From: Sinohyriopsis cumingii
Taxonomy: Eukaryota; Mollusca; Bivalvia; Unionida; Unionidae
Length of the DNA stretch: 64,000 nt
Assembly: GCA_028554795.2 (NCBI GenBank)
Contig: JAPYKE020000281.1
Coordinates: 243,501 to 307,500 of the forward strand
Direction of reading: 5' to 3'
A model generated the notes under the pieces. That model saw only the letters and a list, made by a program, of their open reading frames with translations. It was not told the origin of the DNA and did no database searches. This document shows, in pieces, positions 12,375 to 32,187 of the stretch. Positions within the stretch are counted from its first letter, which is position 1. The number at the start of each line of letters is the position of its first letter. A program made the translations under genes and the position numbers.

Positions 12375-12414
12375 CTATCTCTTTTCGAGATATATGGGGG
12401 CCCTGAAAAGGGCC
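12375..12414 (-). terminator. Histone-type 3' end signal no. 1 (in left TIR)
   Basis: On the minus strand 12414-12399 reads GGCCCTTTTCAGGGCC, a 6-bp stem with TTTC loop, preceded by CCCAAA and followed by CCCA. A purine-rich GAAAAGAGATAG follows about 13 nt downstream (12386-12375), where a U7-pairing histone downstream element is expected. It lies 17 nt after the stop codon of the 126-residue gene. No AATAAA is found between. Processing as a histone 3' end is inferred from sequence match. Confidence 0.75.
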
Positions 12415-12430
12415 TTTGGGTTTTCTTCTT

Positions 12431-12811
12431 CTAATTTCTTCTTTTCCTCCACCAACTTCTTATTTTATCTCCAACACTCTTTCTCTTCTTTTTTTTCTCC
12501 TTCTCTTCTTTCTTCTCTTCCTCCTCCTCTTCTTTCTTCCTCTTCTCATTTTCCTCTTCTTTTTCAATTTTTTCGTTCCATGTTCTTATTCTTATCTTTT
12601 CCTCTTCATCCTCCTTCTCCTCCTTTATTTCTTTCAACAGATCACTGATGATTACCTTCATTTTTCGTAAATTGTTTATCTCCATCTTCACTCGATGGGG
12701 ACTATATGAATAGTGATCCTCGTTTAGGTTAACCAACATTTGCTCTATCATTCCTAAATTGTCGAGGACGTTTTGCAATTTTTCCATTTTGTCCATTTGG
12801 TTAGAAGCCAT
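12431..12811 (-). CDS. Charged coiled-coil protein A (126 aa), histone-type 3' end
   Basis: Unknown family. Residues 1-65 are predicted helical with a heptad-like pattern (MEKLQNVLDNLGMIEQMLVN). Residues 66-115 are almost pure Glu/Lys, and the C-terminus is basic (SWWRKRRN). The N-terminal helix resembles those of the two neighbouring genes at 13236 and 14098, so the three look like tandem paralogues. Upstream, a TATA-like TATAAG (about 12862) follows the shared promoter motif, here present twice (12873-12900 and 12942-12969). The stop is followed after 17 nt by a histone-type stem-loop in the TIR. A nuclear or chromatin role would fit its charge, but no function can be assigned. Confidence 0.7.
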   Translation of the reverse strand: MASNQMDKMEKLQNVLDNLGMIEQMLVNLNEDHYSYSPHRVKMEINNLRKMKVIISDLLKEIKEEKEDEEEKIRIRTWNEKIEKEEENEKRKKEEEEEEKKEEKEKKKKRKSVGDKIRSWWRKRRN

Positions 12812-13189
12812 CTTCTTTGTATTCTTTGCAGAATGGTTTGAACAACGAGCACTGTGGCTTCTTATACGAAAAGCGCGAACGTGAAGGAAAACATCCCCCT
12901 AAAACATAAAATGGATCTTACCTAGATGATGACCCAACATCGCGCGAACGTGAAGGAAAACATCCCCCTACTTTCTCATTTCATATAATAAAACCCTAAC
13001 TATACTCTTCACATACGCTAAGAAACCCATAATCTACTATTCACACTAACATACCTGAGCTCTTACAAACACAAACACACAAACTCATACCCTCACACTA
13101 TCTAAAATAAGAGTTAGTGTTTATATACACACTACTCTACCTACACACATTGGCAAATTAATAGTTATTTCTTTTCTAGACTATTGGGT
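12812..13189 (-). promoter_or_regulatory. Promoter of protein A gene, with duplicated 28-bp motif
   Basis: On the minus strand the motif GGGGGATGTTTTCCTTCACG, followed by TTCGCGC, occurs at 12969-12942 and 12900-12873. It precedes a TATA-like element at about 12862 and the ATG at 12811. The same motif stands in the same place before the other two paralogues. Further upstream, 13040-13180 is similar to 13920-14045, showing that gene and spacer were duplicated together. Confidence 0.7.
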
Positions 13190-13205
13190 AGCCCTGAAAA
13201 GGGCT
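13160..13205 (-). terminator. Histone-type 3' end signal no. 2
   Basis: Minus strand 13205-13190 reads AGCCCTTTTCAGGGCT (6-bp stem, TTTC loop), followed immediately by ACCCA and then AGAAAAGAAATAAC as a candidate downstream element. It lies 30 nt after the stop of protein B. The outer A-U pair replaces G-C, which the fold tolerates. Confidence 0.78.
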
Positions 13206-13235
13206 GTTTTTGTTTGGAACTTCATGGACACCTGG

Positions 13236-13619
13236 TTAATGGTGGCACCTTCCAGGCCTGGCGCCACATACACATCTTATCCCCCAGTTACTTTTTACCT
13301 TTTGGGGGCAGAGAGCAGAGGCAGGATATGTCGCTTCAGAATCCCAATTTTCGCTCTCTGGGATTTTGAAATTTCTTCTCTCCTTTTCCTCCTCCTCTTC
13401 TTTGTTTCTTCTTTCCTCTTTATATCTTCTTTCTTCTTCTTCTTTATATCTTCTCTCCTCCTCTTCTTTCTTTCTTCTTTCCTCCTCTCTTACCCTTCCC
13501 TCCTCGACAATGGCTTCCGCGGCCAGTTCATTTAATATGCGCCTGGCATATTCCAGATGCACATGAAGCTCCAACAGTTTCTCAAGTCTCGTGTTCATTC
13601 TTCTGGCTGTGTTGATCAA
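13236..13619 (-). CDS. Charged coiled-coil protein B (127 aa), histone-type 3' end
   Basis: Unknown family, paralogous in layout to proteins A and C. An N-terminal amphipathic helix (TRLEKLLELHVHLEYARRIL) is followed by Glu/Arg/Lys repeats with the period EEERRYK at about 45-78. The C-terminal 40 residues are not charged in this way and end with clustered Cys and His (CVCGARPGRCHH). The promoter has the shared motif at 13668-13695 and a TATA box (GTATAAATT, about 13657-13663). The 3' end is stem-loop no. 2. The EER repeats are encoded by a purine-rich microsatellite-like stretch, so their length may vary between copies. Confidence 0.65.
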   Translation of the reverse strand: MINTARRMNTRLEKLLELHVHLEYARRILNELAAEAIVEEGRVREEERRKKEEEERRYKEEEERRYKEERRNKEEEEEKERRNFKIPESENWDSEATYPASALCPQKVKSNWGIRCVCGARPGRCHH

Positions 13620-14053
13620 TCAACAAGGGTAGCTGGACTGCCGAACGAGTTTCAATTTATACTGAAAGCGCGTACGTGAAGGAAAACATCCCCCTAATAA
13701 CATAAAATTCATCTTACCTAGATCATGACCAAAAAAACAACAACGCGCGGACCTAAAAGAAACACTCACTTACTTTTTATGCTACCCATCACTATTTTAA
13801 AATTTTTTATAAATCACTTCAATAGACTATCCACATACGCAAAGCAATTCAATCTAACTCCAAATATACACCTCTAACACTAAGAAAAGATATCATTTTA
13901 ATCTACTATCCGCACCAACATACCTGAGCTCTTACAAACACACCGACTCATACACTTCCACTATTAAGAAAGAGTTAGTGTTTATTTTCACACTACTCTA
14001 CCTACACATACATTGGCAAATCTATCGTTACTTCTTTTCTAGAGTATTGGGGT
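13620..14053 (-). promoter_or_regulatory. Promoter region of protein B and duplicated spacer
   Basis: Holds the conserved motif (13668-13695), a decayed second copy starting GCGCGGACC at 13745, and a spacer (13920-14045, CTGAGCTCTTACAAACAC onward) that matches 13040-13180. Like the first unit, the layout is gene, motif, decayed motif, spacer. Confidence 0.65.
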
Positions 14054-14069
14054 AGCCCTGAAAAGGGCT
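14030..14069 (-). terminator. Histone-type 3' end signal no. 3
   Basis: Minus strand 14069-14054 reads AGCCCTTTTCAGGGCT, followed by ACCCCA and, 13 nt on, AGAAAAGAAG. It lies 28 nt after the stop of protein C. Flanks are shared with signal no. 2, consistent with duplication of the unit. Confidence 0.77.
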
Positions 14070-14487: not shown

Positions 14488-14785
14488 TGGATGGTTAGAC
14501 TGGAAACAACCCGGTTCTTAAAGTGAAAGCGCGGACGTGAAGGAAAACATCCCCCACACGGTTTTCGAGTCGCAACGTTCATGAGAGAGATAGTAAGAAA
14601 TGAAAGAGCATCAATCCAACATTCTTATAGCTAAACAAACCACAAAGGCATTTTTTTTTCTAAACACAACATTTTTTATTCAAAAAATCACTTAACACTA
14701 AACAGCAACATTTTTAACAATAATACAACATGATAACATCAAACAATTTTTTTCAAATCACAAACATTTTTTCTTCAAATACAAT
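14488..14785 (-). promoter_or_regulatory. Protein C promoter and poly(A) signal of the capsid gene cluster
   Basis: The shared motif lies at 14529-14555. On the minus strand AATAAA occurs at 14680-14675, about 105 nt after the protease stop codon, so the large minus-strand cluster appears to end by ordinary polyadenylation here. The contrast with the histone-type ends just beyond it is marked. Confidence 0.65.
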
Positions 14786-15346
14786 CTACTTTAAACAAGG
14801 CTGACAACGTTGTGAATGAAATTGTGATTTCCACTGTTGGAAATCATTAGGCCATTGATGGACACTACGTTTCCTAGCTTGAGACAAAAGATAAGCATAA
14901 TGGTCACAAAACCATCGATCTACTTTCACATCGTTTCTAGCAGAAGAACGAGGATCAAAATGAGTCACTAAATGTTCTAAGGAATAGCCCAGGCTGCGAT
15001 GATGCAGAAAATACACACAGTACTGTCCACACACCAAGGAATCTGTGCCTTGTAATTTCACGTTATTGAATCGGGTGGTTTGAGCATTTCTTCTCATAAA
15101 GTCGATGATATCGTCTTCCAAAGGGGGCAATCCGTACGAATCGAAATATTCCAAACATCCTTCTTGAGGAAAGTAGACGGCTACCCAGTGGGTTCCTGGG
15201 AGATGACTTTCGTCCGTGTTGATCACGTAAGCTTGATGGTCTTTAGGTTTGCGATGAGGGAGTTCATCTTTAGCACAGACGACAGGATTCCAAGAAGCCG
15301 TATACGAACTATGGTTCAAAAGGTAATAAAGTTCCCAGGTATCCAT
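14786..15346 (-). CDS. PRO: Adenain-like cysteine protease (virion maturation protease)
   Basis: A 186-residue C5/Ulp1-clan cysteine protease as found in Polintons, adenoviruses and adintoviruses. Catalytic residues are visible and correctly spaced: H53 in GTHWVAVYF, D69 in EYFDSYG, the oxyanion-hole Gln Q99 in KLQG and nucleophile C106 in LVCGQYC, seven residues after Q99 as in the adenovirus enzyme. Length fits the family (about 180-210). It would cleave precursor core and capsid proteins during particle maturation; candidate GG-containing sites occur in three small basic proteins of this element. It is the last gene of the tight minus-strand capsid cluster and appears intact. Confidence 0.93.
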   Translation of the reverse strand: MDTWELYYLLNHSSYTASWNPVVCAKDELPHRKPKDHQAYVINTDESHLPGTHWVAVYFPQEGCLEYFDSYGLPPLEDDIIDFMRRNAQTTRFNNVKLQGTDSLVCGQYCVYFLHHRSLGYSLEHLVTHFDPRSSARNDVKVDRWFCDHYAYLLSQARKRSVHQWPNDFQQWKSQFHSQRCQPCLK

Positions 15347-15368
15347 TGATTTGTGTTTTTTTTCTTCT

Positions 15369-15872
15369 TCACAGGTAATAATAAGTCGTCAATTCGATCC
15401 TGACTTTTTGCTTGAAAATGTCTGACGAATAAACGGTTATTCGTTCTGTTTCCTCACTCTGATTCAGGAGAGCTTCGATACGATGGATCTCTTGAGTGGT
15501 TAATGGTGGACAAGAATGTTCACGCAAGTCTTTATACCACTGGTGCAACACGTCTTTGTTTGAGATGAGACTCCAAGCTTCGTCCAGATACTCGTCCAAT
15601 TTTTCTTCTTGACTCAACATCAGGCATTTATCGTGTTGAATTTGACTGGGATGATCGTTTTGACATCCATAACAATTTTTCTTGATCAATTCCGTCATTT
15701 TGTCGACCAAGTGTTTGGCAAAACAGGAGACTAAATGAGCTTCTTGTTCTGGCCATCTCGACTTCATCATGACAATTTCTTCGTCTTTGTCTTGGGATTC
15801 TCCTTCCACGGTCTCTTCACATTTCATGTCCAAAGTTTCTTCACTAGGTAAAGAGGGATAACAGTCTTCCAT
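15369..15872 (-). CDS. Conserved Polinton-type protein with a Cys/His cluster
   Basis: A 167-residue protein of unknown function between the protease and major capsid genes (22 and 5 nt gaps). The N-terminus is acidic. Residues 42-62 form a helix, followed by C67-x2-C70-x3-H74-x5-H80-x2-C83 (CYGCQNDHPSQIQHDKC), a plausible metal-binding knuckle. The rest is helical. I believe similar Cys/His proteins are common in metazoan Polintons and adintoviruses, but I cannot name a characterised homologue. Position suggests a late virion or assembly role. Confidence 0.75.
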   Translation of the reverse strand: MEDCYPSLPSEETLDMKCEETVEGESQDKDEEIVMMKSRWPEQEAHLVSCFAKHLVDKMTELIKKNCYGCQNDHPSQIQHDKCLMLSQEEKLDEYLDEAWSLISNKDVLHQWYKDLREHSCPPLTTQEIHRIEALLNQSEETERITVYSSDIFKQKVRIELTTYYYL

Positions 15873-15877
15873 GGCTT

Positions 15878-17203
15878 CTAGTAATCTAGAATGACTTCTC
15901 TCAAACTGTTGATTTCTATCGTATTGTCAAATTCTGCATACAGGATCACGTTCAACGTTGGATCAGCAGGGTCTCGATTTGCAAACTGAATTTCCACACG
16001 AATCTGGCCAGATTTTATAGGGTGGAAATGTCCCTCGTCGCTGCCTTGGTCTGGAGTGAAATCAAAGGCCCACAAAGCATAGCCTCCTGCATAATCTTCG
16101 TACGTAATACCGTGACTGGTATTGGTTCCTAACTGTCCGGTGGCTTCGTACAGGGACAAGTACGATCTCAAGTAATTGTTCTGGGCAAAGTTAGGCTCAA
16201 AGGGTCGTGTACACAAGGTCTTGCCGTCACGACTGACTTCGATTTTGGACACGCTAGAGTGTCGAAACTCAAAAGGATTTTCGTTATGAAGTCCATTGAA
16301 AGCTGAATTCCTGACGATACCAACGATCAAACGCTTGGGTAACTGTCCTTGGAACAGATGATCTTCGATCATGGATCGCTGTCCAACAGGAATGGTGAAC
16401 GTTTTCACTTCCACACGTCTTATGGGATACTTGGCGGTCGTTCTGCTCAACGTCTGACTGATGTCGTTTCCCACTTTAGGTAACACTTCCACACGGCGTA
16501 CGTAAAGTCTGGCTTCTTGGATAACAGTTTTGTATTCGTTGGCATGGGCCATCAAATGGAAAGCGGCAGTGCTACGATTCAGTCTCAGGCGAATATCAAC
16601 TCCGTTCAGTAAATACTTTTCTTGTAACCACATGTCCAAATGCAAACGATCCATCAGTTCTAAACTACGTCCTTGCAAAATTTTAGTTCTACGTGTGTTA
16701 AACCCCACATTGTGAGGATTGTCATCTTCTGTCAGGGCTGTGTCGCTAAACGTGCCTGCACCTGCCGTGTCAGGTTTCCATACCACGCAAGCATCCAGAT
16801 GAGTATTCTTGGCTTCTTTTCCGTACGTCAAGAGATTTTCCAAGTAGGCACGATATGGGTAAGTATCCATGCTGCTGCTGACCAGTTTGTTATTCAAGTA
16901 CAAGTCCACTTCGCTGAACAAGGAATGCATGAAATTGTTGACGGGCGCTACCCTATCATTGGCTCCAGGATTGGTGTTGTCAGTTTTGATCACTTTGACT
17001 TTCAAATACAGGTAACTGCTATTCAGATCGATGTAATCTTCGGGTTGTCCTTTGATTTCGAACTCGATGGGAGCGGAATCCGTCAAAGAGGAGACGGGAT
17101 GAAATTCCACCCACTGGGATTCTTGCATCGTCATCATGGTGGGGGGCATGGCAAACATATCCAGTTCCGTCTTGGAACAAGCACATGACTCTCGGTGCAT
17201 CAT
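15878..17203 (-). CDS. MCP: Major capsid protein (double jelly-roll, hexon-like)
   Basis: A 441-residue protein. Its N-terminal beta-strand block (IDLNSSYLYLKVKVI), then NNFMHSLFSEVDLYLNNKLV and DTYPYRAYLENLLTYGKEAK, is the signature of Polinton/adintovirus major capsid proteins of the double jelly-roll lineage. Length is within the family range. It would form the trimeric capsomers of an icosahedral shell. The first ATG at 17203 is followed at once by a second, either of which may be used. It lies 12 nt after the basic 138-residue gene and 5 nt before the Cys/His gene. No TATA is seen, so it is probably expressed from a longer, possibly spliced, late transcript. Confidence 0.88.
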   Translation of the reverse strand: MMHRESCACSKTELDMFAMPPTMMTMQESQWVEFHPVSSLTDSAPIEFEIKGQPEDYIDLNSSYLYLKVKVIKTDNTNPGANDRVAPVNNFMHSLFSEVDLYLNNKLVSSSMDTYPYRAYLENLLTYGKEAKNTHLDACVVWKPDTAGAGTFSDTALTEDDNPHNVGFNTRRTKILQGRSLELMDRLHLDMWLQEKYLLNGVDIRLRLNRSTAAFHLMAHANEYKTVIQEARLYVRRVEVLPKVGNDISQTLSRTTAKYPIRRVEVKTFTIPVGQRSMIEDHLFQGQLPKRLIVGIVRNSAFNGLHNENPFEFRHSSVSKIEVSRDGKTLCTRPFEPNFAQNNYLRSYLSLYEATGQLGTNTSHGITYEDYAGGYALWAFDFTPDQGSDEGHFHPIKSGQIRVEIQFANRDPADPTLNVILYAEFDNTIEINSLREVILDY

Positions 17204-17215
17204 TTTTTCTGTGTC

Positions 17216-17632
17216 TCAATAATCGAAAACGTCTAAGTCTCGAACGGTTCTTCTTTTCTTGGCTTTTCTAGCTTGAAGTCTGGTGAAAGGGTGTTTTCTT
17301 CGTCGTCTCTTTCTGCCTTGTCCTTGCTGAATGCCTGACTCGGTAGCGTGCAGGGCATTTATAGGTGTGTCTCGTCGGCCTAAAATGTCTTTACCCGTTT
17401 GCAGCAGGACATTTTTGCCTGCCCTCATGAAGGCTTCTTTAGGGTTTTGTTTGTCGATGATGACATTTTGGAGAAATTCTTTGCCTTGCGTCAGTGCTGC
17501 ATCTTTCAAGGCGTGCAATCCGCGTGTCACCATCGGTTTCAACACCGGGGCCACCGAACGAAAGGCCGATTTTAACATGTCTCCTAAACCGTGTCCTCGC
17601 TGTCGAGCAACCCCTTGGTACACTGGATACAT
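17216..17632 (-). CDS. Basic virion core-like protein (138 aa)
   Basis: Residues 14-45 form an amphipathic helical stretch rich in Gly/Ala/Val (HGLGDMLKSAFRSVAPVLKP). The C-terminal third is strongly basic, with GRKRRRRKHP and ARKAKKRR, and ends in an acidic DLDVFDY. The layout recalls the small basic core or pVI-like proteins of adenovirus relatives that bind DNA or lyse membranes after proteolysis. It lies between the major and minor capsid genes, where Polintons usually carry such a gene. Function is inferred from composition and position. Confidence 0.75.
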   Translation of the reverse strand: MYPVYQGVARQRGHGLGDMLKSAFRSVAPVLKPMVTRGLHALKDAALTQGKEFLQNVIIDKQNPKEAFMRAGKNVLLQTGKDILGRRDTPINALHATESGIQQGQGRKRRRRKHPFTRLQARKAKKRRTVRDLDVFDY

Positions 17633-17639
17633 GACTTGC

Positions 17640-18569
17640 TTACGAATCGTGAGAGAACCGTTTTCGAAAATGGAGTTTCACCGTGACTTTTCCTTTGGTG
17701 AATGGAATATTTTGTCCCAAATCTCCTTTTATAGTAATGTTGACCGTGTCCAAATACGACTTGCTGACTGGCAAATAGTGAGGATGGACAAATTCGCGGT
17801 GAACGTGGTAAGTGTTTCCACCTTCCTCGTCAGCGTTTGCGGCAGAATCCACTTTGAAAGGAATGACACGCAGTAACGGTACGGAGGTGTGTCCCACCAC
17901 GTTATACTCCACCGCATCGGAGTACACGAACATCAAATTCAGTCCTTGGTTCAGTTCTACTGGGGTACGAAACAACTTGCTAAAAGACTCGTTGTCGTAA
18001 ACGATGGGTAATTCGTTGTTCTTGAGTATGCTCATTCTCAGGTTCATGTCTCCGCCCAACATGTCAAACAATTCAGGACAAAATAAAATGGACATGATTT
18101 TACTCCGCTCAAATCTCATCGAGAAGCGACGAGCTACTTTGTGGTACTCCATGGTGACACTTATTTTGGCATGCTCCAAAGCTTTCCCAAACACGCCATT
18201 AAACTTGGCAGATATGACGTTGACCAAATGTTGACCACTGAAATAATAACCTGGGGGAATGAAAAAGTGGTAGGTCCATTTTTGAGTTTTCTCATTATAG
18301 ATTTTATTGTCATACATGACTTTCTTATTCAACTCCTGTTGCAATGACTCGTCATGAACTTCCACATGAAAAAAATTTTGATTGGGAAGGACATTGAGGA
18401 CTTGGGTTGGGTGAATGATTTCCACTAAAGCCACTTCCCAATGGGCTTCGTGATCTAAGGGGATGGCCTGAGGTAATTTGGCCGTGTAACAGCACAACGT
18501 GTTGTGGGGAAACACCTCCATGGAACTGTCACTGGGTAAGGTTAAGTAAAATTGGTTTTGGTGACTCAT
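17640..18569 (-). CDS. Minor capsid (penton-like, single jelly-roll) protein
   Basis: A 309-residue protein beginning NQFYLTLPSDSSMEVFPHNT, then YTAKLPQAI and HWEVALVEIIHPTQVLNV. This N-terminus is highly characteristic of the Polinton/adintovirus minor capsid (penton) family. The remainder is beta-rich with a C-terminal PFTKGKVTVKLHFRKR strand. It should occupy the fivefold vertices. Its start overlaps the stop of the two-TM gene by four bases (18566-18569), a compact arrangement that suggests coupled or spliced expression. Confidence 0.88.
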   Translation of the reverse strand: MSHQNQFYLTLPSDSSMEVFPHNTLCCYTAKLPQAIPLDHEAHWEVALVEIIHPTQVLNVLPNQNFFHVEVHDESLQQELNKKVMYDNKIYNEKTQKWTYHFFIPPGYYFSGQHLVNVISAKFNGVFGKALEHAKISVTMEYHKVARRFSMRFERSKIMSILFCPELFDMLGGDMNLRMSILKNNELPIVYDNESFSKLFRTPVELNQGLNLMFVYSDAVEYNVVGHTSVPLLRVIPFKVDSAANADEEGGNTYHVHREFVHPHYLPVSKSYLDTVNITIKGDLGQNIPFTKGKVTVKLHFRKRFSHDS

Positions 18570-18991
18570 AATTCCAGAGTTCTGTGGCTGTCCGAGGGGA
18601 TATTAGTAGATGTCAGAGGTGTGTCTCCGCCCAAAATGGGGTTCTGGTTGTTGTTGGAGTGGTGACTGGCACTGGCACTGGACACAACGTTCCCGTTCGA
18701 GGAGAATTTCAGGGAGGGATTGGGAAGCAGGTAACCGATGCAACTGCTCAATAAAATGGTCCACAATTGTTTGTCTCCTTGTTGCAAACTCAAATTGGCG
18801 ATGGCTGCCCCGATGACACAATACACCACGAAGATTTGGCAGAAAAAGACGATTTGCGTTTTAGGCACACGTTCTCCACACCACACCCACAAGGGTTGTT
18901 TTTGTAAATCTTGCACAGAAGAACTAGGGGAAGAAGGACTGGTCGACGTAGCTGCGTCTGCTGCTGTTGTGTGAAAGGGCATGATGGTCAC
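18566..18991 (-). CDS. Two-transmembrane virion-associated protein
   Basis: A 141-residue protein with a Ser/Thr-rich N-terminus, then two hydrophobic segments at about 46-67 (QIVFFCQIFVVYCVIGAAIA) and 75-90 (LWTILLSSCIGYLLPNP), and a polar Ser/Asn-rich tail. Comparable two-TM proteins sit next to the penton gene in many Polintons; their role is not established (envelope, entry or assembly are possible). It overlaps its neighbours by 4 nt on both sides (18566-18569 and 18988-18991). Confidence 0.8.
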   Translation of the reverse strand: MTIMPFHTTAADAATSTSPSSPSSSVQDLQKQPLWVWCGERVPKTQIVFFCQIFVVYCVIGAAIANLSLQQGDKQLWTILLSSCIGYLLPNPSLKFSSNGNVVSSASASHHSNNNQNPILGGDTPLTSTNIPSDSHRTLEL

Positions 18992-20136
18992 TTCTTCTTT
19001 TTATAGTCGATGACTTGCGAAGCGTCGATCCAAGAATCGAAACTGGGTGGATATCCTTTCCAACGTACTTTGACTTCTTTGACACGTCGTTTGCCCACTT
19101 TACGGGTTCTGCGTTCGAGAATGCTTTCGATGTCGTACACGTCGTCTTCTTTTTTGGTGACACGTTGTAACTCGGGCAAATAAAACGTTCCTTTGAGTAC
19201 TTCTCCGTTCATGTCTTCCAATTTATAGACGGCAGGATGACGGCCATGCACTCGTCCAGTGACGCGAAACAATTCGGTCGTCCAGTTAGGTAAGTAACCT
19301 TTGTCGAAAGTGCGTTTGGTTTTGCCAATGCGCACCCAATCTCCTACGGTCAACTCTCCACTTTTCTTGGGGACAGCCCTCGTCGGGGACGTACCGAACA
19401 GGCGCTCGAACACCAGCACTTCGTTGTCGGGAGTCACGTCTTGCGGGGCACGTCCGATGCTTCGATGGTAAGATTGGTTGTACGCTTGCACCAGGTGCGG
19501 TAAGATGTCGATGTACTTCAGAGTGTGGTGATGCGTAAAATATTTCCACATGCGTTCTTTCAAAGCACGTTGAAAACGTTCCACGATACTGGCTTTGGTT
19601 TCGGGATTCTCGGTGGTAAAAAAATGAATGTCACGTTTCTTTAATTCTTTTTGGAAAGCTTGGTTCAGAAATTCGGTGCCTTTGTCCGTTTGCCATCGAA
19701 GAGGGCGACGACCGCTTTGTTTCAACACCCGTTGCAGGGCTCGCACTAACTCGCTGCTCGATTTGGAAGTCAAGGGCACGACCCAGGCAAATTTGGAAAA
19801 GACGTCGATGACACAAAACAAATATTTGTAGCCGCGATTGTAGCTGGCCAAATGAGAGACATCGGCTAAATCGGCTTGCCATTGATGATCGATGCCTTCC
19901 ACTCGGGTGCGACTTCTGGCAAACTTGCGTCGAATGGGTTTGTGTAAAGTGTAGGTAGCTTGTTCTTGTAACCATCGTTGCACTTGAGGTAAACGGAGAC
20001 TTTTCAGTCGAGTTTTGGCAGCACGATACAATTTTTGAACTCCTGCGTAACCTGCAGGATGGGAGGGATCGTAGTAAATGCTGGCTAAGACTTTTTCCAT
20101 TTTTTGTGTTGGTTGATGTGTTAATAAGGCACCCAC
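18988..20136 (-). CDS. INT: Retroviral-type integrase with C-terminal chromodomain
   Basis: A 382-residue rve-family integrase that would catalyse insertion and produce the 6-bp duplication. Catalytic D89 (WQADLADV), D151 (WQTDKGTEF) and E186 (SIVERFQR) give D,D(35)E spacing. Upstream residues 14-60 resemble the integrase zinc/helical N-terminal region but lack a clear HHCC. Residues 262-325 form an SH3-like segment. Residues 333-377 (DIESILERR...VKVRWKGYPPSFDSWI) are a chromodomain that may steer integration to modified chromatin. The ATG at 20136 overlaps the previous gene by 16 nt. The in-frame ATG at 20100 (residue 13), 20 nt past that stop, is an equally good start. Confidence 0.93.
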   Translation of the reverse strand: MGALLTHQPTQKMEKVLASIYYDPSHPAGYAGVQKLYRAAKTRLKSLRLPQVQRWLQEQATYTLHKPIRRKFARSRTRVEGIDHQWQADLADVSHLASYNRGYKYLFCVIDVFSKFAWVVPLTSKSSSELVRALQRVLKQSGRRPLRWQTDKGTEFLNQAFQKELKKRDIHFFTTENPETKASIVERFQRALKERMWKYFTHHHTLKYIDILPHLVQAYNQSYHRSIGRAPQDVTPDNEVLVFERLFGTSPTRAVPKKSGELTVGDWVRIGKTKRTFDKGYLPNWTTELFRVTGRVHGRHPAVYKLEDMNGEVLKGTFYLPELQRVTKKEDDVYDIESILERRTRKVGKRRVKEVKVRWKGYPPSFDSWIDASQVIDYKKKK

Positions 20137-20741: not shown

Positions 20742-20790
20742 GGGGTTGTCAGGGATGAATTCTGAGATCTTGGGACTTCCGAAGGCCTTT

Positions 20791-21201: not shown

Positions 21202-21263
21202 TCACCGAACAGACACTAACGTCGATGACTTAACGCACACCCTTTTATCTTTTTTTTCTGGGA

Positions 21264-22462: not shown

Positions 22463-22497
22463 ACTGTGTGAGACAGACGAAAAAGGGTCTGAGGTTT

Positions 22498-23327: not shown

Positions 23328-23333
23328 TTTATT
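23328..23333 (-). terminator. Poly(A) signal for the overlapping small-gene cluster
   Basis: AATAAA on the minus strand, 7 nt beyond the stop of the TM protein and just upstream of the ATPase TATA box, giving a compact gene boundary. Confidence 0.7.
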
Positions 23334-23340
23334 GAATGTT

Positions 23341-23890: not shown

Positions 23891-24105
23891 GGAGGTGGTA
23901 AGTACTGATCGTAAAGAGTCCACAAAGAATCGGCTGGTAAACGAAATCCCAGAAAACAAGTCACTAAGACACACACCACTTGTCGTCCAAAATTGAATGG
24001 ATACAGTTCTTGTAATAATTGATGGTAATGATCCACGGTTTGAATATGGTCATTGAGTTCCTTCCACGGAATCTGTTGGATGACATGTGACATAAACCGT
24101 GGCAT
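23881..24105 (-). CDS. Small hypothetical protein (74 aa)
   Basis: Helical N-terminus (MPRFMSHVIQQIPWKELNDH), then a hydrophobic VVCVLVTCFLGF segment and an aromatic/Pro end. A TATA-like AATATAAAAAC (minus about 24124-24114) is so close that the true start may be the second Met (24093). It overlaps the 3' end of the 172-residue F-box-like gene by 56 nt. No known family; promoter and packing suggest a gene. Confidence 0.45.
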   Translation of the reverse strand: MPRFMSHVIQQIPWKELNDHIQTVDHYHQLLQELYPFNFGRQVVCVLVTCFLGFRLPADSLWTLYDQYLPPPWP

Positions 24106-24568
24106 GGCAGCCTGTTTTTATATTCTCTTTTTTTCGGATGCAATAGACGTACTTTCTAGCCAGAGATCTTCGTTCTCCAGTAGGGAATCTAAATCTTGCA
24201 TACTGTAACCGAAACGTCAGAGTTCGTTTAGGTGTTTCCTCTTCCTCTAAGTAGATTCCACGTAAAATATGTTGGTAATCCTTTAACTTGTCTTCCTCAA
24301 TGTATTGCTGTAGGTGAATCTCGAAGTAACCATAATTATGAACATGTCGATCATTAGCGACCTCAAAGTGTTGAACAATGTCTGACCATTGAAAGAATTT
24401 CTGACGAATCAGTTCTTTTATACCATTCAAGTACCAGTGGTTAAAGATCTGGTGACGTATCGGATGCAATTGTTCTTTACGTTTCACTTGTATTTTCACC
24501 AGCTCTCGGTAAATGCGTTCTCTCAACTCCACAGGCAAAGCACGAATGTTCTCTTGTAAAGTATCCAT
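24050..24568 (-). CDS. F-box-like accessory protein, paralogue 2
   Basis: A 172-residue protein starting MDTLQENIRALPVELRERIY. The LPVELRERIYREL segment has the look of the first helix of an F-box, which binds Skp1 in SCF ubiquitin ligases; the match is short and the call tentative. The body has conserved Trp/Tyr positions shared with the next gene (HWYL, W.DI, and a C-terminal R.RF..GE...C..Y..C pattern). The first 40 residues and their DNA are almost identical to the neighbour at 24581-25036, showing a recent tandem duplication or conversion. The downstream halves are much more diverged. Confidence 0.65.
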   Translation of the reverse strand: MDTLQENIRALPVELRERIYRELVKIQVKRKEQLHPIRHQIFNHWYLNGIKELIRQKFFQWSDIVQHFEVANDRHVHNYGYFEIHLQQYIEEDKLKDYQHILRGIYLEEEETPKRTLTFRLQYARFRFPTGERRSLARKYVYCIRKKENIKTGCHATVYVTCHPTDSVEGTQ

Positions 24569-24580
24569 GAATAGGTCATA

Positions 24581-25036
24581 CTAAATCCTCTTTGGTCTGA
24601 CACAAGAAATGTACTCTTTGCACAAACATGGTTTCACTTCAGTGTCGAATTTAAATCGTTGAGTCACTAATCTACACATTACAATTCGTTCAGAAGTTTC
24701 CTCTTTCACCAAGTTGACATTGTGTTCAAAAAGTTTGTAATTCGTTAACTCTTCCTCTGGAATTCGATGCAATACGTTTACAATGTAGTAACTACAATCG
24801 TCCATACCAAACCATTCCTTTTTATAACCAGAAGGTCGTTGATCAATGTCTGTCCAATGGAACACTTTCAATTGAATCAGTCCTTGTATAGCCTTCAGGT
24901 ACCAGTGGTTCAAACACCGGTGACGTATCGGATGCAATTGTTCTTTACGTTTCACTTGTATTTTGACCAGCTCTCGGTAAATGCGTTCTCTCAACTCCAC
25001 AGGCAAAGCACGAATGTTCTCTTGTAAAGTATCCAT
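24581..25036 (-). CDS. F-box-like accessory protein, paralogue 1
   Basis: A 151-residue protein from the ATG at 25036, the start aligned with its tandem copy; an in-frame ATG two codons upstream (25042) also exists. The N-terminal 40 residues (MDTLQENIRALPVELRERIY, then RELVKIQVKRKEQLHPIRH) match the neighbour almost exactly. The rest has diverged, with about one residue in three shared. No catalytic motif is seen. A virus-like element with F-box-like proteins beside an IAP-like gene suggests an accessory block acting on host ubiquitin or cell-death pathways (inference). Confidence 0.65.
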   Translation of the reverse strand: MDTLQENIRALPVELRERIYRELVKIQVKRKEQLHPIRHRCLNHWYLKAIQGLIQLKVFHWTDIDQRPSGYKKEWFGMDDCSYYIVNVLHRIPEEELTNYKLFEHNVNLVKEETSERIVMCRLVTQRFKFDTEVKPCLCKEYISCVRPKRI

Positions 25037-25064
25037 GAACAAATGATTATGGTAAGAAGTTACT

Positions 25065-25808
25065 TCAATGTCTCGGTCCCACTAAAGGTAAGTAATGACA
25101 ATTCGGTGACCATCGAGCATGTTCAACGAAGGCCGAATCTTGCGGTTCCCAGTGGTGAAGTGACACACCGCAACTGAAGCACTTGACTTTATCTCCTTCG
25201 CCCAAGTAGAAAAATCCGGCTCTGGCTAATTCTTCGGGGGTCGGTCCTCCCAGATACTTTGGCCATTTTCCTTTGAACGATTGAAGACGATTTTCAAAGT
25301 CGCAGTATTCCGACGAACGCACAGGAAACGAATATTCGTTTTTCACAGGTTCGTTTCGATGAGGGTTGAGTGAAATGGGTAGGAGTTTGCTCAGGGCTGG
25401 ATGACATCCGTAGGGAGGTAAACGTGAAGGTCGACATTCCCCTTTAAAACGAAACCCAGTAAAATGTCCAAGAGGACGAGCAGCATCGCTTTCGCATCCC
25501 ACAGGTTTGACACGCACAGCATCACTTTCCATGACAGGGGTAGGGGCACTAAAGTTCCCATGATGCTTTACGGCATCGCTCAGGTCACAAGGTACAGCAT
25601 CGGTCCCATCGCAAGGCTCACAATCGCACTCGTCTGCAAACTCCGTTACGCAATTACAATGGTAACCACATGGACAATCGCAGTTTCCTTCCGGACATTT
25701 TCCGTCACAATGCATGGGTCTTATCCATCCAATATTAGTCACACTAGAGGAAGATACAACTTTTTTACAATCCCCAAACTGGAACGATGTCTCTTTCAAA
25801 GTATTCAT
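25065..25808 (-). CDS. BIR-domain (inhibitor-of-apoptosis-like) protein
   Basis: A 247-residue protein. Residues 171-240 are a type II BIR domain: ENRLQSFKGKW, then ELARAGFFYLGEGDKVKCF, and zinc ligands C210-x2-C213-x16-H230-x6-C237 with EHARW before the last. BIR proteins bind caspases or IAP antagonists and block apoptosis. No RING is present, so it lacks its own E3 activity. The N-terminal part (34-75) is very Cys-rich (CPEGNCDCPCGYHCNC), followed by SDAV/SDAA repeats. The TATA box TATATAAAAA (minus 25874-25865) sits about 60 nt before the ATG. Likely captured from a host and kept by the element; intact. Confidence 0.93.
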   Translation of the reverse strand: MNTLKETSFQFGDCKKVVSSSSVTNIGWIRPMHCDGKCPEGNCDCPCGYHCNCVTEFADECDCEPCDGTDAVPCDLSDAVKHHGNFSAPTPVMESDAVRVKPVGCESDAARPLGHFTGFRFKGECRPSRLPPYGCHPALSKLLPISLNPHRNEPVKNEYSFPVRSSEYCDFENRLQSFKGKWPKYLGGPTPEELARAGFFYLGEGDKVKCFSCGVSLHHWEPQDSAFVEHARWSPNCHYLPLVGPRH

Positions 25809-25853
25809 CTTGTTTGCTCGGTCTTGGTAGTCACAATGAACTATCGATCTTGC

Positions 25854-28800
25854 CTAGGGTTCCTTTTTTATATACAGACCAATACCGACGTGACCGTACG
25901 GTAAGGTGAAATGATTGGGAAGTCGAACTCGCTTCTGGTATACAATTTGATAGACTTTCTCCAAGGGTCGACTGACGATGTGGTGAGTGGGTAAACGTAC
26001 AATTTTGTTCGGTTGATAGGTGGTCACTATAAAGTTTCCATCCTCTCCCGATTGCAAGGCTTCTTTCAATACCCCAAAGTTGACCACTCGACTGGTACGA
26101 TAATTCAGAGTCAGTCCTTTCACTTTGCACGTCGTGTGCACTTCTCCTTGTTTGTCCCGGTATTCGTAGCCGTAATTTTTGGGACCGCCACTGACGAAAC
26201 TTAGAATCTTGTCGTCGGGATGTTCGTCTGTCCAGGCTCCTAAACGGTCTCCTTCGATGTTAGGGTGATGTTGAATCGGGTGATGGATGTAAATGCAACT
26301 GTCCGTGTCAAAGTACAGGACGCGTTCCCCTAACAGTTCTAAAGCTTCGTACAATTTTAAGCGAGCATGGGCTGTCACGTAAGCCGCAATGATGACATTT
26401 CCAAAAGGGTCGTCTTGTACGAAGTCCAGATCTTCTTCGTAATTGACCAAGATCAAATTCTCTCGAACGACGTCCACGTGTTTCATGTATTTGGTTTTGT
26501 CGTGAATCATCTGGAAGTAGCGGGAAGGTTCTGTCAAATATTCCGTCTTGGGTTAACACGGTCGTTGTGCCATTTTACCCCACAAGCAATTTAACATCAC
26601 TTTGGCAAACGATCGCCTGCCTTCGTTTTTCTCGATGTGGTCTAAAGTGATACCTTCTTGTTCGTAATATTTCTCTTTGAATTTTATTTGGTCTTGGGGA
26701 GTGTGACACCAGGAAGGATAGCCGCTGGCTTCTTGCTTCAGTTTCAAAAAGGCATCCACGTAGTCTGCGAAAATGCCTTTCTGCGTGGGGTCACCCTTGC
26801 GGTACTGTTGTGTCTTGGGAAAGTGGCAAATTTCGTACACTTCTAACAGTTGGTATCCCATGTCCAGAGCTTTGAACAATTCCACGCTGACCCAGGTTCC
26901 CGTCAAGGCCTGTTCTTCCTGGCTGTGCTGACAAGGCTGGTCTTGGTTGCACGTTTCGGCACAAGTACGGCACAAGGGAAACATCAGTTTGCCTTGACAA
27001 TGGTGAGGTAAGACGGGATGGTATAGGTTCGTGGGAGGCAAAACTTTGCACTTGATCAAGCCTTCGTATTGTCGAATGTTTTTCAGGTCGATGTGTTCCG
27101 TCAGCAATTGCGGGTGCCCTACGGGAAAGCGACAATATTTGCACACGTAGGGATACAGCGAACACACGTCCAAGTATTTGATTTCTTCTCCTTTCTCTTC
27201 GTCGGCTTGGTACAGCAAACAGGTGGCATTGGTCCTTCCTCCGTACAAACTATCCCTCGGGTTCAGCGGGTCCATGAACTGGTAACTTTCCACGAGACGT
27301 TTAAACTCGGGATCGGTTTTCATACGGTGATCGTACTCGTGTTCCCACATTTCCACCACTTGGTATCCTTCCTGTTCCAACTTTAGGCGTCGCTGACAAG
27401 TGTCCTGGTACAAGTCTTCCATGGTTCGTTGCAAAAACTGATTTTTAGTACCACGGTCAGGGTAACAGACGGGACATCCGTGAAATAAGCAACCGTTAAA
27501 CTCGTACACGATCTTGGGGTTTTCTAAGTCCCAGCCATCGACCGAATATGTTCCGATGGTCTTTTCGCCCCCTCCGTTGCGGGCATGCTGAATCCACTTG
27601 TCTTCCTTGTCGCACAAGTAATGTAACCAACGTAGGGCTTTGACCGAGTACTGACGTTTGACAAAGTGGGTCGTTTGAGGACTGATGACAGCCACGGTGT
27701 TTTCAGGCATGAATCGTTGTCGATACACTAAGGAACACGCTTTGGCAATGGTGCAAGCTTCTTTCAAAGGATCGACCCCTCCGTGTTCCATGAACAGTTC
27801 TCGAAATTTTCCACAGCAACGCCGTAAAATGTCCACGTCGGAACGACAATACTTTAGCATTTCTTCCTGAAAGTCGAAAGGGTCCGAAGCGTGAGCCTGG
27901 TACCAAGCGTAGAAAGCTTGTCGTTGTTCGGTACGCATGTTGTCGGGGTCGTAATAGTGAGCCTCAGGTAAATGGGGTAGAACGGCGTGTTGATTGGCTT
28001 CCGTATTGAAAAAGTGTGGAAAGTACCCTTTAGCCATTTCTGTCATTCCAAACGTTTTAGGCATTCGACTCAAAGGCATGGCCAAATAGCTCATCGAATC
28101 TTTAAACTGTACTTGTCCCACTTGCATGAAAATGATTTTGGCTCCGTTCAAAGTCACTTTAGGACGCTCGGTGCCTTGTTCCGTATAGTACCTCAAAAGA
28201 AACTGTCCATCGTATCCGGAGAAATTGTGAGCCATCACCGTGTCATGACGATGACAATCTCCGTAACGTTCGATGTCCTCTTGGCTCCACGTCTTGTCGA
28301 TGGGGTCTAAGACCCATCGAGCAAAATCGGCTAACGTGTTCGGTCCCCGAAAGATTTTTTCACGTCCTCCAGGAATCTTGCTGCAGTGAGGGCAATGATT
28401 GAAGATAGGTTCTTGAATGCACTTCTCGCACGCTCGATGAGCCACGCAAAAATTAGGAATGTGAATGCCGGTCTCTTGCATGCATTCGAAATCGAAAAAG
28501 ATGAAATTGCCTTTCTTCTTGTGACCGTCCTCTTTCTCTGGTGAGGGTTGGTATTTTTGCACGTAGCATTGGTGTTCCAAGTCCACGATGTGGTGACAAA
28601 TGTGACATTTTTTCTTTCCTCGACATACGTGTGCCTTGGCATTATTGGTAAGTATGCCTTGTCCACACGTAGGGCACAATCTCAGGAGTTGACAAGCGCA
28701 TTTCTTCTGTGAACCTTGCGTCTTCAAATGTTGTTGGTAACAGGTAGGGCTGACAAACGTGCGCAGACAAGTGGAACAAGGCACTGGTTCTTCGCTCAGA

Positions 28801-29903
28801 CAGGGTGGAGAGGCCAAACATCCTGAGCATTTCCATCCACAATGTTTGTGTTGCTCTCGATTATTATAACCATAGTCACATTTCTCACAATAATAAACAT
28901 ATCTCAGGAATCCAGTGATACTGGTAATGGTATCGAAATGGTCATCGTGATGATAAAGGTGAATGTATTTTCCGTCCTTAAAATCTTGGCCTCGAAACAA
29001 TAGAGGCCCGCGCATTTGTTGAGGGTGCACTTTCAAGGTGTATCGTGGAGCTAGGACATCTTGCAATTTTTGCATCTCGGGAATGCCACAAGGTGTGTCT
29101 TTGGGCAGTCCGGCTTGTTGTAACAGGAGTTCTGCTTCGTTTCGTTGTTTGGCTCGGTCGGAACGTTGAATAGTGTTCCAGGTTCTTTTCCATTCTACCG
29201 TGTCGTTCTTGTTGGCATAGGTTCGTCCCACCACGATGGCACGGGCTAAACACATCTGGTCATGAGGGTTGTTAATTCGGACGAGACTCGTTTTGGTGTT
29301 GCGAAGGTCGTCCACCAATAACATCTTTTTGCGTCCAGTCCCTTGAGGAGGAGAGACGTGGGTCATGTCCAGTGTGGCTTTACCATCGGTGATGTCAAAC
29401 TGATCATTAGATTGTTGTACGTGTTGAATCTTGTCCATGACTTTGGAAGCAGTTAATTCTGCAGGGGTGCTAAACTCGATCCAAACAGGGGATTTCAAAC
29501 CGTCGTGTTGTATGGAAAGTCTCAAGCGATCGTCTTCTTTGGGTTGACATTGTCGCTTGAGTGCAGTGAGCAAAGAATCCCACACCTCGGTGATGAACCC
29601 TTCTGCTTTCTCTAACGGCACTTCAGCCTTGAAATCTTTAAACTTCACCGTGTATTTGTAAGCCGTGGTTCTAAATTTTCTAGAGGAGCGCTTTTCCGTC
29701 TCTCGAATGGAATAGTAATTTTCAGGGTTAACTAAGGGTGATGAACTTGGTTTAGAGGGTTCGGATTCTGGTTCACTCATGTCCTCTTCAAAATCACTGG
29801 CATGAATTTGTGCCAAGATCTCAGCCCTGGTACGAGGCGATAGATCACGTTTCTGCCTCTTACTTTCTTCTTCTTTCTTCTCGAATGAATGGGATCGTTT
29901 CAT
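25854..29903 (-). pseudogene. POLB: Protein-primed family-B DNA polymerase, interrupted by one in-frame stop
   Basis: The reading frame runs 1,116 codons from the ATG at 29903 to a TAA at 26555-26553, then continues in the same frame for about 230 codons to 25854. Residues 340-450 hold a Cys/His zinc-finger cluster. Exonuclease motifs are ExoI FFDFE (about 470), ExoII HNFSGYDG (about 560) and ExoIII YCRSDVDIL (about 685). Polymerase motif A is LDVCSLYPYV (about 910), motif B KVMLNCLWGKM (about 1100), and motif C YFDTDS lies only after the stop (about 1195). The product ending at the stop would lack a catalytic Asp and be inactive unless the stop is read through or is a sequencing error. The TATA TATAAAG is at about 29958-29951. 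Confidence 0.92.
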
Positions 29904-30037: not shown

Positions 30038-30508
30038 ATGGAAGAGACTGACCAGATGGAACGTTTCGTCAGAGCTTTGCGAGGGGTCATTAGAAAATTC
30101 TCTTCAGACCAGCCTACGGACTACTCTCCTTCCTTTAGAGATAAAAGTCAAGATACTTGCTATATCTGTCAGAAGAAAGGGCATTGGTCTTCAGAGTGTC
30201 CAGACCGTCAAAAAAGAAAAAACACAGGGGATAAAAGAGACAAAAGTCAAGATACCTGTTATTATTGTAAAGAAAAAGGACATTGGTCTCCAGATTGCCC
30301 AAAAAAGAAACAAGAGGAGTCAGAAGAAGAGAGGAATTCTTCAGAAGAAGAGAGGGATTCTTCAGAGGAAGAGAGGGATTCTTCTGAGGAAGAAAGAAGA
30401 CAGGTGAAGAAAAAGAAACAGGAGAAAAAAAGAAGAAGGGAAGAAAGCGAGGAGGAAGAAGAGGAAAAGAGTGTGACGGTGAAGAAATTCAAAAAACAGA
30501 GAGACTAA
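30038..30508 (+). CDS. CCHC zinc-knuckle protein with Ser/Glu/Lys-rich tail
   Basis: A 156-residue protein from the ATG at 30038. Two retroviral-nucleocapsid-type knuckles are perfect CX2CX4HX4C: C41, C44, H49, C54 (CYICQKKGHWSSEC) and C74, C77, H82, C87 (CYYCKEKGHWSPDC). Each is preceded by RDKSQDT, so the second arose by internal duplication. The tail is SSEEERDS repeats (candidate CK2 sites) followed by Lys/Glu-rich sequence. It should bind single-stranded nucleic acid. The frame opens at 29990, but the TATA box at 29975-29984 puts that ATG before the start of transcription. It is one of only two plus-strand genes. A poly(A) signal AATAAA is at 30595-30600. Confidence 0.8.
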   Translation: MEETDQMERFVRALRGVIRKFSSDQPTDYSPSFRDKSQDTCYICQKKGHWSSECPDRQKRKNTGDKRDKSQDTCYYCKEKGHWSPDCPKKKQEESEEERNSSEEERDSSEEERDSSEEERRQVKKKKQEKKRRREESEEEEEEKSVTVKKFKKQRD

Positions 30509-30757
30509 ACAAGGAGAAAAGAAGAAATTAATGAACTTTTTATTAAAGTGTTGTGTTATAAATTGTGAATTGGATTGTAAAAAATGGAGAAAAGAATAAA
30601 TGAATGATATAAGGTAAGTGTCTTTGAGTTGTGATTTTAAAATAAGAAGCTACACTCACGCACTCATACACAGACACGTATTAAAAGGGTAACATGGGTG
30701 AGTTTTTTTTGAGTTATTGGCAAATTGAAATTGTATTTCTTTTCGAGAAATGTGGGT
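30509..30757. other. Intergenic region between convergent genes
   Basis: Contains AATAAA on the plus strand (30595-30600) for the zinc-knuckle gene. On the minus strand it holds the downstream part of histone-type signal no. 4. The segment TTGGCAAATT near 30717 is shared with the flanks of signals 2 and 3. Confidence 0.6.
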
Positions 30758-30773
30758 GGCCCTGAAAAGGGCC
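30728..30773 (-). terminator. Histone-type 3' end signal no. 4
   Basis: Minus strand 30773-30758 reads GGCCCTTTTCAGGGCC, followed immediately by ACCCA and then CTCGAAAAGAAATAC as a candidate U7-pairing element. This is the closest match of the five to a metazoan histone gene 3' end. It lies 27 nt after the stop of the 192-residue gene. Confidence 0.8.
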
Positions 30774-30800
30774 TTTTTTCTTCATGGTGTAGGGGTGAGT

Positions 30801-31379
30801 TTAAGCAATCAATTTTAACTGCCTTAAGCCTTTGCCACGGCCAAGGCCTACTTCTGGACTGCGTAATGTTGATGATAATGATTGGGTTGAAATCACTAAG
30901 GGTGGTACGGTAGGCTTAGTCACAGGGTTGACATGTTTGGCTCGGGAAGATCGTATTCTCTTCGGTCGTGATAAAGAAGTCTGATACATTTGTTTCAGAC
31001 TTCTTAACTCCGCTAAAATGTCCAACAGTACCGTGACCGTTTGATTTTCACCCTCTTGTTTCTTTGCTGCTACTTCTTCTTGCTGTTGTTGCTGTTGTTT
31101 TTTTCTTACCTCTTCTTCTTGTTGCTGTTGCTGTAGGAGAAAAGTCTGTTCCGCTTCCTTTTGTCGTTGTATAAATTTCTCCAATTCTTCTTTCTGTCTC
31201 TGTCTAAAATTCTCCACTTGCGGTAATGAAGAAAGTAACGAAGGTTCCGGAACAAATTCTTGCGAGGAGAGAAAATCCACAAAATCCCAATTCACCTCTT
31301 CTGAAAGTAAGTCCGGGTTCCCTTGGGCAGTCTCCCCTGCTGGTGCACCCCACTGGATCGTTTTCTGAGTTTCCGTCAT
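30801..31379 (-). CDS. Coiled-coil, Gln-rich protein (192 aa), histone-type 3' end
   Basis: Acidic N-terminus, then a long helix about 55-110 (NFRQRQKEELEKFIQRQKEA) with two Gln runs, a second helix about 115-140 (VTVLLDILAELRSLKQMYQT), and a basic Ser/Pro-rich C-terminus (SRPKRIRSSRAKH) that could be a nuclear localisation signal. No known family. It shares with the left-end proteins a charged coiled coil and the histone-type 3' end, but not their promoter motif. A TATA-like AATATAG (minus about 31433) lies upstream, in a control region shared with the divergent 77-residue gene. Confidence 0.7.
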   Translation of the reverse strand: MTETQKTIQWGAPAGETAQGNPDLLSEEVNWDFVDFLSSQEFVPEPSLLSSLPQVENFRQRQKEELEKFIQRQKEAEQTFLLQQQQQEEEVRKKQQQQQQEEVAAKKQEGENQTVTVLLDILAELRSLKQMYQTSLSRPKRIRSSRAKHVNPVTKPTVPPLVISTQSLSSTLRSPEVGLGRGKGLRQLKLIA

Positions 31380-31598
31380 GTTGAATCACTGTCGCATAGA
31401 TTGACTGCACACAAGCGCTAGCGAATCTATATTGACTACGTGACGTCACAGACTGCTCTCTTCGGATTGGATGCGAGCTGACTGAATTCTGTAACGCGTG
31501 TTCGGATTGGTAAATGAACTCAATCCGTTTCAATCCTTCCTCCGCCTATAAATAAGTGCCGTTCAATGCATTGATTCACCTGTTCTCGTCGCTTCAAG
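31380..31598. promoter_or_regulatory. Divergent control region with CRE, CCAAT and TATA motifs
   Basis: Contains a palindromic TGACGTCA (31441-31448), two inverted CCAAT boxes in TTCGGATTGG (ATTGG at 31466-31470 and 31506-31510) and TATAAATA (31547-31554) facing the plus-strand gene. A weaker TATA-like element faces the minus-strand gene. CCAAT plus TATA with a short leader is also the usual layout of replication-dependent histone promoters. Confidence 0.65.
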
Positions 31599-31832
31599 AT
31601 GTGGACTACAGTTGAGTCATCCACCCTTGTGTCTTCCATGATGTTTCGGACAGACTTGCTCATGTATGTCCGATCGAAGTGGACCGTTGTCCACAGGACA
31701 AACACCAGCCTGTGGATACGTAGGATCTACGTCGAAAGACAAGGATGCCTGAAAAGAGTGCTGATGTACGGACCAACAGTAAGACGCAGCCTAAGGACAA
31801 GAAGAAGACCAATGCGGTGCCATTTATGTTAA
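31599..31832 (+). CDS. Short Arg-rich protein (77 aa), histone-type 3' end in the right TIR
   Basis: The open frame starts 45 nt after TATAAATA, leaving a leader of about 20 nt, and its stop lies 25 nt before a histone-type stem-loop. This complete layout (CCAAT, TATA, short ORF, stem-loop, downstream element) is the main support. The protein is basic toward its end (RVLMYGPTVRRSLRTRRRP, then CHLC) and has no recognised domain; a DNA- or RNA-binding role would fit. Another frame overlaps it on the minus strand, so the coding call is moderate. Confidence 0.5.
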   Translation: MWTTVESSTLVSSMMFRTDLLMYVRSKWTVVHRTNTSLWIRRIYVERQGCLKRVLMYGPTVRRSLRTRRRPMRCHLC

Positions 31833-31847
31833 TGAATACATTAACAT

Positions 31848-32187
31848 AAAACCCAAAGGCCCTTTTCAGGGCCCCCATATATCTCGAAAAGAGATAGTCT
31901 TTGAATTGCCTACCCCTTTTTTAAAAAAAATTTTTTATTTTTTTTTATTTTTTTAAAAAAAATCCTATATTCAATTTCCCTTGACGCTAGATTGACCCAC
32001 GATTTATTCCCATGTTAAATTCCCCTTGTCCGTAGAGTGACCCACGATTTATTCCCATGTTAAATTCCCCTTGTACGTAGAGTGACCCACGATTTTTCGC
32101 CATGTTAAATTTCCATTGTACGTAGAGTGACCCAGGGGTGTTTTGAGTGGAATTCCCATTGTACGTAGGGTGCCCCACTTCACTACT
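31848..32187 (-). repeat. Right terminal inverted repeat of the Polinton
   Basis: Mirror of 12086-12424, with the same 45-bp subterminal tandem units (31980-32135). The differences I find are lengths of A/T homopolymers at 31918-31962. Confidence 0.95.
31858..31897 (+). terminator. Histone-type 3' end signal no. 5 (in right TIR)
   Basis: Plus strand 31858-31873 reads GGCCCTTTTCAGGGCC, preceded by ACCCAAA and followed by CCCA, with GAAAAGAGATAG at 31886-31897. It is the TIR mirror of signal no. 1, so each end of the element carries one stem-loop facing outward. Confidence 0.75.

Follow-up and report, generated by a model that had tools for sequence, protein, structure and literature searches.

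The window analysed here is a 64,000 nt stretch of the genome (2.9 Gb) of the bivalve Sinohyriopsis cumingii (assembly GCA_028554795.2, contig JAPYKE020000281.1, positions 243,501–307,500 of the forward strand). It contains a Polinton of 20.1 kb, towards the ends of which are five short genes, here called A to E, each followed by a stem-loop like those that end replication-dependent histone mRNAs (Table 1). The element has a polymerase B of the protein-primed type, an rve integrase with a chromodomain, an A32-like ATPase (Pfam DNA_pol_B_2, 2e-40; rve, 2.4e-14; Pox_A32, 1.4e-7), long inverted repeats, and a 6 bp target duplication, CGTGGA, which can be read directly outside both ends (12080–12085 and 32188–32193), and it has all of these in common with the Polintons, or Mavericks, and the adintoviruses. 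Judged by the repeats and the duplication, the element is larger than the 12375–31897 that had been assigned to it in a first-pass annotation made from the same sequence. The sizes of the terminal open reading frames (ORFs) hinted at captured histone genes, which was ruled out by a Pfam search that found no histone family among A to E.

Table 1. Features of the Polinton and of its terminal genes, in positions of the window.
Feature	Position	Strand	Basis or detail
Polinton, 20.1 kb	12086-32187		inverted-repeat comparison; polymerase B, rve integrase with chromodomain, A32-like ATPase, BIR
Left terminal inverted repeat	12086-12424		contains the 3' end of gene A
GAAAAGA downstream element, gene A	12380-12386	-	12 nt past stem
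Stem-loop, gene A (terminal inverted repeat copy)	12399-12414	-	pattern, Rfam, host-trained model
Gene A, 126 aa, lysine/glutamate-rich	12431-12811	-	ORF; homologues in other copies
Host-histone promoter element before A, 21/23	12873-12895	-	84 nt ahead of ATG
Host-histone promoter element before A, further copy, 21/23	12942-12964	-	153 nt ahead of ATG
GAAAAGA downstream element, gene B	13170-13176	-	13 nt past stem
Stem-loop, gene B	13190-13205	-	pattern, Rfam, host-trained model
Gene B, 120 aa	13236-13598	-	ORF; homologues in other copies
Host-histone promoter element before B, 21/23	13668-13690	-	92 nt ahead of ATG
21 nt identical to host H4 promoter, before B	13742-13762	-	BLAST E 3.8e-6
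GAAAAGA downstream element, gene C	14033-14039	-	14 nt past stem
Stem-loop, gene C	14054-14069	-	pattern, Rfam, host-trained model
Gene C, 121 aa	14098-14463	-	ORF
Host-histone promoter element before C, 22/23	14529-14551	-	88 nt ahead of ATG
Core genes	14786-29903	-	18 ORFs examined
GAAAAGA downstream element, gene D	30738-30744	-	13 nt past stem
Stem-loop, gene D	30758-30773	-	pattern, Rfam above cut-off, host-trained model
Gene D, 192 aa	30801-31379	-	ORF; homologues in other copies
TTCAATCC-N10-TATAAA before E, as before host H2A	31529-31552	+	spotted by eye, then counted
Gene E, 77 aa	31599-31832	+	ORF; homologues in other copies
Right terminal inverted repeat	31848-32187		contains the 3' end of gene E
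Stem-loop, gene E (terminal inverted repeat copy)	31858-31873	+	pattern, Rfam, host-trained model
GAAAAGA downstream element, gene E	31886-31892	+	12 nt past stem

Five stem-loops had been reported in the first-pass annotation, and all five are found in place as exact matches to GCCCTTTTCAGGGC in a pattern search of the window, where one further match (19727) has 3 mismatches. Each is in the sense orientation to the gene that precedes it, at 16, 30, 28, 27, and 25 nt past the stop of A, B, C, D, and E respectively; the layout of a stem shortly after the stop of a small ORF is therefore as annotated, with a spacing of 16–30 nt rather than the 17–31 nt given for it. The purine-rich stretch expected some 13 nt further on is present as GAAAAG at 12, 13, 14, 13, and 12 nt past the stems of A to E. 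The number of GCCCTTTTCAGGGC matches is by itself mildly unusual, in that 3 of 100 shuffled sequences reach 6 matches when 3 mismatches are allowed. A perfect 6 bp stem with a 4 nt loop and [AG]AAAAGA at exactly 13 nt is found at two places in the window, those of D and B, and is absent from all 60 resampled sequences.

A search of the genome for H4 gave 114 matches, mostly in arrays with a period of about 8.3 kb, and one such host tandem unit carries H3, H4, H2B, H2A, and H1. The stems of the host genes are GGCCCT/AGGGCC, or GGTCCT/AGGACC in the case of H1, and lie 27–38 nt past the stop, as against 16–30 nt in the Polinton, with GAAAAG 13–14 nt past the stem, as against 12–14 nt. The Polinton genes have in common with metazoan replication-dependent histone genes the stem GGCCCT/AGGGCC, the TTTC loop, and GAAAAGA at the spacing of the host, which bears out the earlier likening of these ends to the metazoan histone layout. 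They differ from histone genes in that their proteins are not histones, in their location within a mobile element, and in the outermost stem pair of B and C, which is A-T. An AAAGAG core and an ACCCA ahead of the cut, the same as at the host and Polinton ends, are described for mouse H2a in PMC7026596.

With the Rfam model Histone3 (RF00032), which has a cut-off of 34 bits, the host histone ends score 35.0–39.4 bits, lower than gene D of the Polinton (30734–30778, minus strand), which scores 41.2 bits. A second covariance model, built from the five host histone ends alone and run unfiltered over the window, ranks the five Polinton sites first to fifth, at 53.3, 52.0, 50.4, 47.5, and 47.3 bits, followed by a sixth site at 18.5 bits. 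The covariance check called for in the first-pass annotation has thus placed the sites far above background, with one of the five over the Rfam cut-off and all five at 47–53 bits in the host-trained model.

Similar ends are present in other copies of the element. A Histone3 scan of the whole genome scored 75 sites out of 589,472 first-look candidates, which means that it provides no total of genomic sites, and 28 of the 75 loci were examined (the 8 listed first, the 6 with the lowest scores, and 14 more from the list). Genes of the A to E types are present in all 28, and no histone gene was met in these loci. When A to E and one A-like ORF from another locus were used as tblastn queries there were 67 matches in the 28 loci; 44 distinct places reach the C-terminus, and 23 matches that do not were left out. 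There is a stem-loop within 130 nt of every one of these 44 homologues (30 at 16/16, 11 at 15/16, and 3 at 14/16), with [AG]AAAAG at exactly 13 nt past the stem in all 44, and 27 of the 44 sites are other than the site by which the locus was picked. Across these sites the share of the commonest base is 0.91–1.0 in the inner stem and loop, 0.95–1.0 in ACCCA, and 0.98–1.0 in AAAAGA; in the 30 columns ahead of the stem it is 0.30–0.64 in 23 and 0.68–1.0 in 7, the latter mostly A next to the stem. The outermost stem pair is G-C in 30, A-T in 9, A-C in 3, G-T in 1, and C-C in 1. Gene C itself went unmatched by tblastn in all 28.

With the host-trained model there are 57 sites in these 28 Polinton-end loci and none in 30 loci that surround the capsid-type gene, which are near-identical copies and effectively one core stretch. 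The conservation in related elements that had been looked for is present, within this one genome. Chance hairpins are ruled out by this conservation, by the resampled sequences, and by the host-trained covariance scores. Two of the five hairpins are inside the terminal inverted repeats and all are near the ends of the element, where they might act in the DNA as signals for integration, replication, or packaging. Such a role is scarcely credible, however, given that all five are in sense to the preceding gene, that the purine element and ACCCA are kept, that the hairpins of B, C, and D are outside the repeats, and that the sites match those of the host histone genes.

The ends of the core genes are probably of another kind. 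None of the 18 minus-strand core ORFs has a stem-loop within 400 nt past its stop, and neither does the plus-strand ORF 30038–30508, which lies between the polymerase and gene D and encodes two CCHC zinc knuckles and an acidic tail. This ORF has its own AATAAA 87 nt past the stop, and there is an AATAAA 106 nt past the last core gene (the protease), 8 nt past ORF 23341–23727, and 258 nt past ORF 18566–18982, in this last case inside the next ORF. The first-pass annotation had AATAAA as the signal of the other transcription units, which stands for the protease, ORF 23341–23727, and the zinc-knuckle ORF; genes C and D also have AATAAA, which lies beyond the stem-loop, 112 nt (C) and 257 nt (D) from the stop. 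The core genes are probably polyadenylated, and the distribution of the two signals supports the division proposed there, into a putative polyadenylated set and a putative set processed by SLBP and U7.

The likeness to the host histone unit is not confined to the 3' ends. In BLAST comparison with this unit, the A–C region of the Polinton matches the promoters of H4 (21 nt exact, E 3.8e-6), H2B (24 nt with 1 mismatch, E 1.5e-5), and H1 (26 nt with 2 mismatches, E 2.3e-4), its remaining matches being the stem-loops and one 15 nt AT-rich match. The D/E region has stem-loop matches only, the Polinton core has one 16 nt match (E 0.027), and the flanks of the window have no match at E 0.05. Copying of a whole histone 3' region can be rejected, as the likeness goes no further than the stem-loop and purine block, the promoter elements, and some short stretches that are AT-rich or of low complexity.

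The element shared by these promoters, GATGTTTTCCATCACGTCCGCGC, sits 107 nt ahead of the ATG in host H2B and 105 nt ahead in H1 (22/23); host H2A has it reversed (19/23), and H4 and H3, the latter with 126 nt of upstream sequence available, stay under 16/23. In the Polinton it is present twice before A and once each before B and C. Elsewhere in the window it reaches 16 once (13767) and is otherwise below 16, and the best match in 20 resampled sequences is also 16, which is to be taken as a check and not as a blind test, since it was this same comparison that brought the promoter element to light. There are 17 occurrences of its core, GATGTTTTCCTTC, in other Polinton ends; they fall in 10 of the 13 loci that have an A-type gene, and none is in the remaining 15. 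This finding goes beyond the first-pass annotation and is new here. The looser form of TTCAATCC-N10-TATAAA, the sequence that precedes E, has a single occurrence each in the window and the histone unit and is present in 16 of the 28 loci, and the likeness in this respect between E and host H2A is suggestive only. The sequence ACGTCCGC is taken by us to resemble the motif of HiNF-P (MIZF/HINFP), and TTTTCAATC..GTCCG presumably resembles human H4 site II. PMC5706932 describes HiNF-P as binding H4 promoters and recruiting NPAT.

The form of the promoter element with CTTCACG (23 nt) has 24,126 exact copies in the genome, compared with 0 for the backward control, and among 100 listed places of this form many are in runs of 2–3 at intervals of about 0.7–2 kb, the pattern expected of A, B, and C. 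Copies in such numbers could serve as decoys, the stem-loops and promoter elements titrating SLBP, U7, or a histone promoter factor and disturbing the supply of histones, but each site is in sense, at a histone-like distance, and behind a conserved ORF, none of which a decoy would need, and this explanation is very unlikely. The capsid-type ORF (15878–17203), assigned by size and position and without a capsid match in the Pfam search, has at least 95 genomic copies with a 100% identical protein (95 of 31,291 candidates scored), which makes the Polinton family both young and abundant. Taken with the number of promoter-element copies, this amounts to a very large and recent expansion.

The sequences show that A to E all end in the histone 3' signal of the host, a stem-loop and then a U7-type purine element at the host spacing. 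They show too that the host histone promoter element stands at the start of A, B, and C. There are good grounds to believe that the terminal genes mimic the replication-dependent histone genes of the host, with the core genes ending at AATAAA. SLBP would bind the stem-loop of the A to E transcripts, the U7 small nuclear ribonucleoprotein (snRNP) would pair with the purine element, and CPSF73 would cut between the two. Because of this cut, the A to E mRNAs would end in the stem-loop and have no poly(A), and their synthesis, translation, and breakdown would follow S phase. The core genes (polymerase, integrase, capsid-type ORF, and protease) would end at AATAAA and be polyadenylated.

It might instead be that SLBP/U7-processed ends of the histone type are merely a compact form of termination for short terminal genes, with expression independent of S phase. 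The 3' sequence evidence is the same for this as for mimicry of histone genes, the evidence here is of sequence and not of the cell cycle, and D and E are without the main promoter element. The H2B/H1 promoter element before A, B, and C nevertheless points to shared transcriptional control as well, and compact termination alone is an unlikely explanation. The histone-type RNA ends, together with histone promoter elements at some of the genes, suggest that the Polinton probably borrows the S-phase gene programme of the host. It also seems somewhat likely that the integrated element runs part of its genome within the host histone regulon, by way of both the start and the end of the gene: promoter factors (possibly HiNF-P and NPAT, at the histone locus body) would turn the genes on at G1/S, and processing by SLBP and U7 would produce the mRNAs, shield them, and later remove them in step with S phase. 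The likely advantage would be that the terminal proteins, which are probably early or regulatory, are made when the replication machinery is at hand.

Several observations weigh against this reading, beginning with the absence of the main promoter element from D and E. The Rfam scores of the four sites other than D are under the cut-off (from highest to lowest 32.1, 32.1, 31.5, and 27.7 bits, E 2.4e-5 to 1e-3). The stem-loops of A and E are one terminal repeat sequence in two copies, and one variant is common to B and C, so that the five do not amount to five independent cases. Sites A and E are without the first A of ACCCA, the single-sequence fold of B favours another structure, and the folds of B and C are barely better than those of shuffled sequences (z -0.7 and -1.5). 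In A, D, and E, according to the folding, the purine element can itself be taken up in a further small hairpin. This hairpin is AU-rich (12374–12398, 30734–30757, and 31874–31898), by eye is not kept in every copy, and might regulate access of U7.

In the 44 homologues, some columns past the purine element are conserved too, at up to 0.98, and since the DNA there is partly conserved between copies, shared descent will have added to the conservation signal. That signal is shown within one host genome only, because other collections gave no relatives: the capsid-type and polymerase ORFs have none in a viral-contig collection, using single-sequence queries that could miss distant relatives, two stem-loop patterns have no match in the same collection, and the Polinton ATPase has no relative among phages. 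Host U7 was not found by an Rfam search of the genome (65 scored of 801,960 candidates), and a pattern search gave 23 matches compared with 42 in the backward control, which is the level of chance, neither search having a working positive control; among 15 of the 23 matches that were inspected, none has a convincing U7 3' stem. Host SLBP was likewise not found, in searches that were intron-blind and without a working positive control.

The remainder of the element has features of its own. The terminal repeats hold a unit iterated at a step of about 45 nt (12139–12310 and 31963–32134). The polymerase B region (25854–29903, minus strand) is apparently split over two ORFs (26553–29903 and 25854–26510), so that in this copy the gene may be interrupted. 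The ORF 25065–25808 (minus strand), whose product has a BIR (inhibitor of apoptosis) domain, is perhaps a host-derived anti-apoptosis gene. The adjacent ORFs 24050–24568 and 24581–25036 (minus strand), a tandem duplicate, are almost identical over their first 40 residues and then divergent, with no Pfam match. The match to an adenovirus-type protease is weak (Peptidase_C5, E 0.012, 15.7 bits, under the cut-off of 21.3), and motifs of the LXCXE type are found as relaxed matches only, in three core ORFs.

In a literature search no earlier description of histone-type 3' ends in Polintons or adintoviruses came up, although subscription papers were mostly outside its reach and one may already exist. 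Histone biology and animal DNA viruses are also linked by the histoid genes of adomaviruses and a tailtomavirus, one such virus having adintovirus-like virion proteins, according to PMC11071296. There it is the protein that is histone-like, whereas in the Polinton the regulatory signals are histone-like and the proteins are not.

If the terminal genes are expressed as proposed, their transcripts would form, beside the histone mRNAs, a second class of protein-coding mRNA in animals that ends in a stem-loop, encoded in very many copies and, it appears, by a selfish element. Transcripts of this kind would escape poly(A)-selected RNA-seq, which may partly explain why they were overlooked. The many divergent copies are natural variants in which the SLBP and U7 signals and the histone promoter element could be studied, and the system would illustrate how some of the genes of a Polinton can be expressed in time with the DNA replication of its host.

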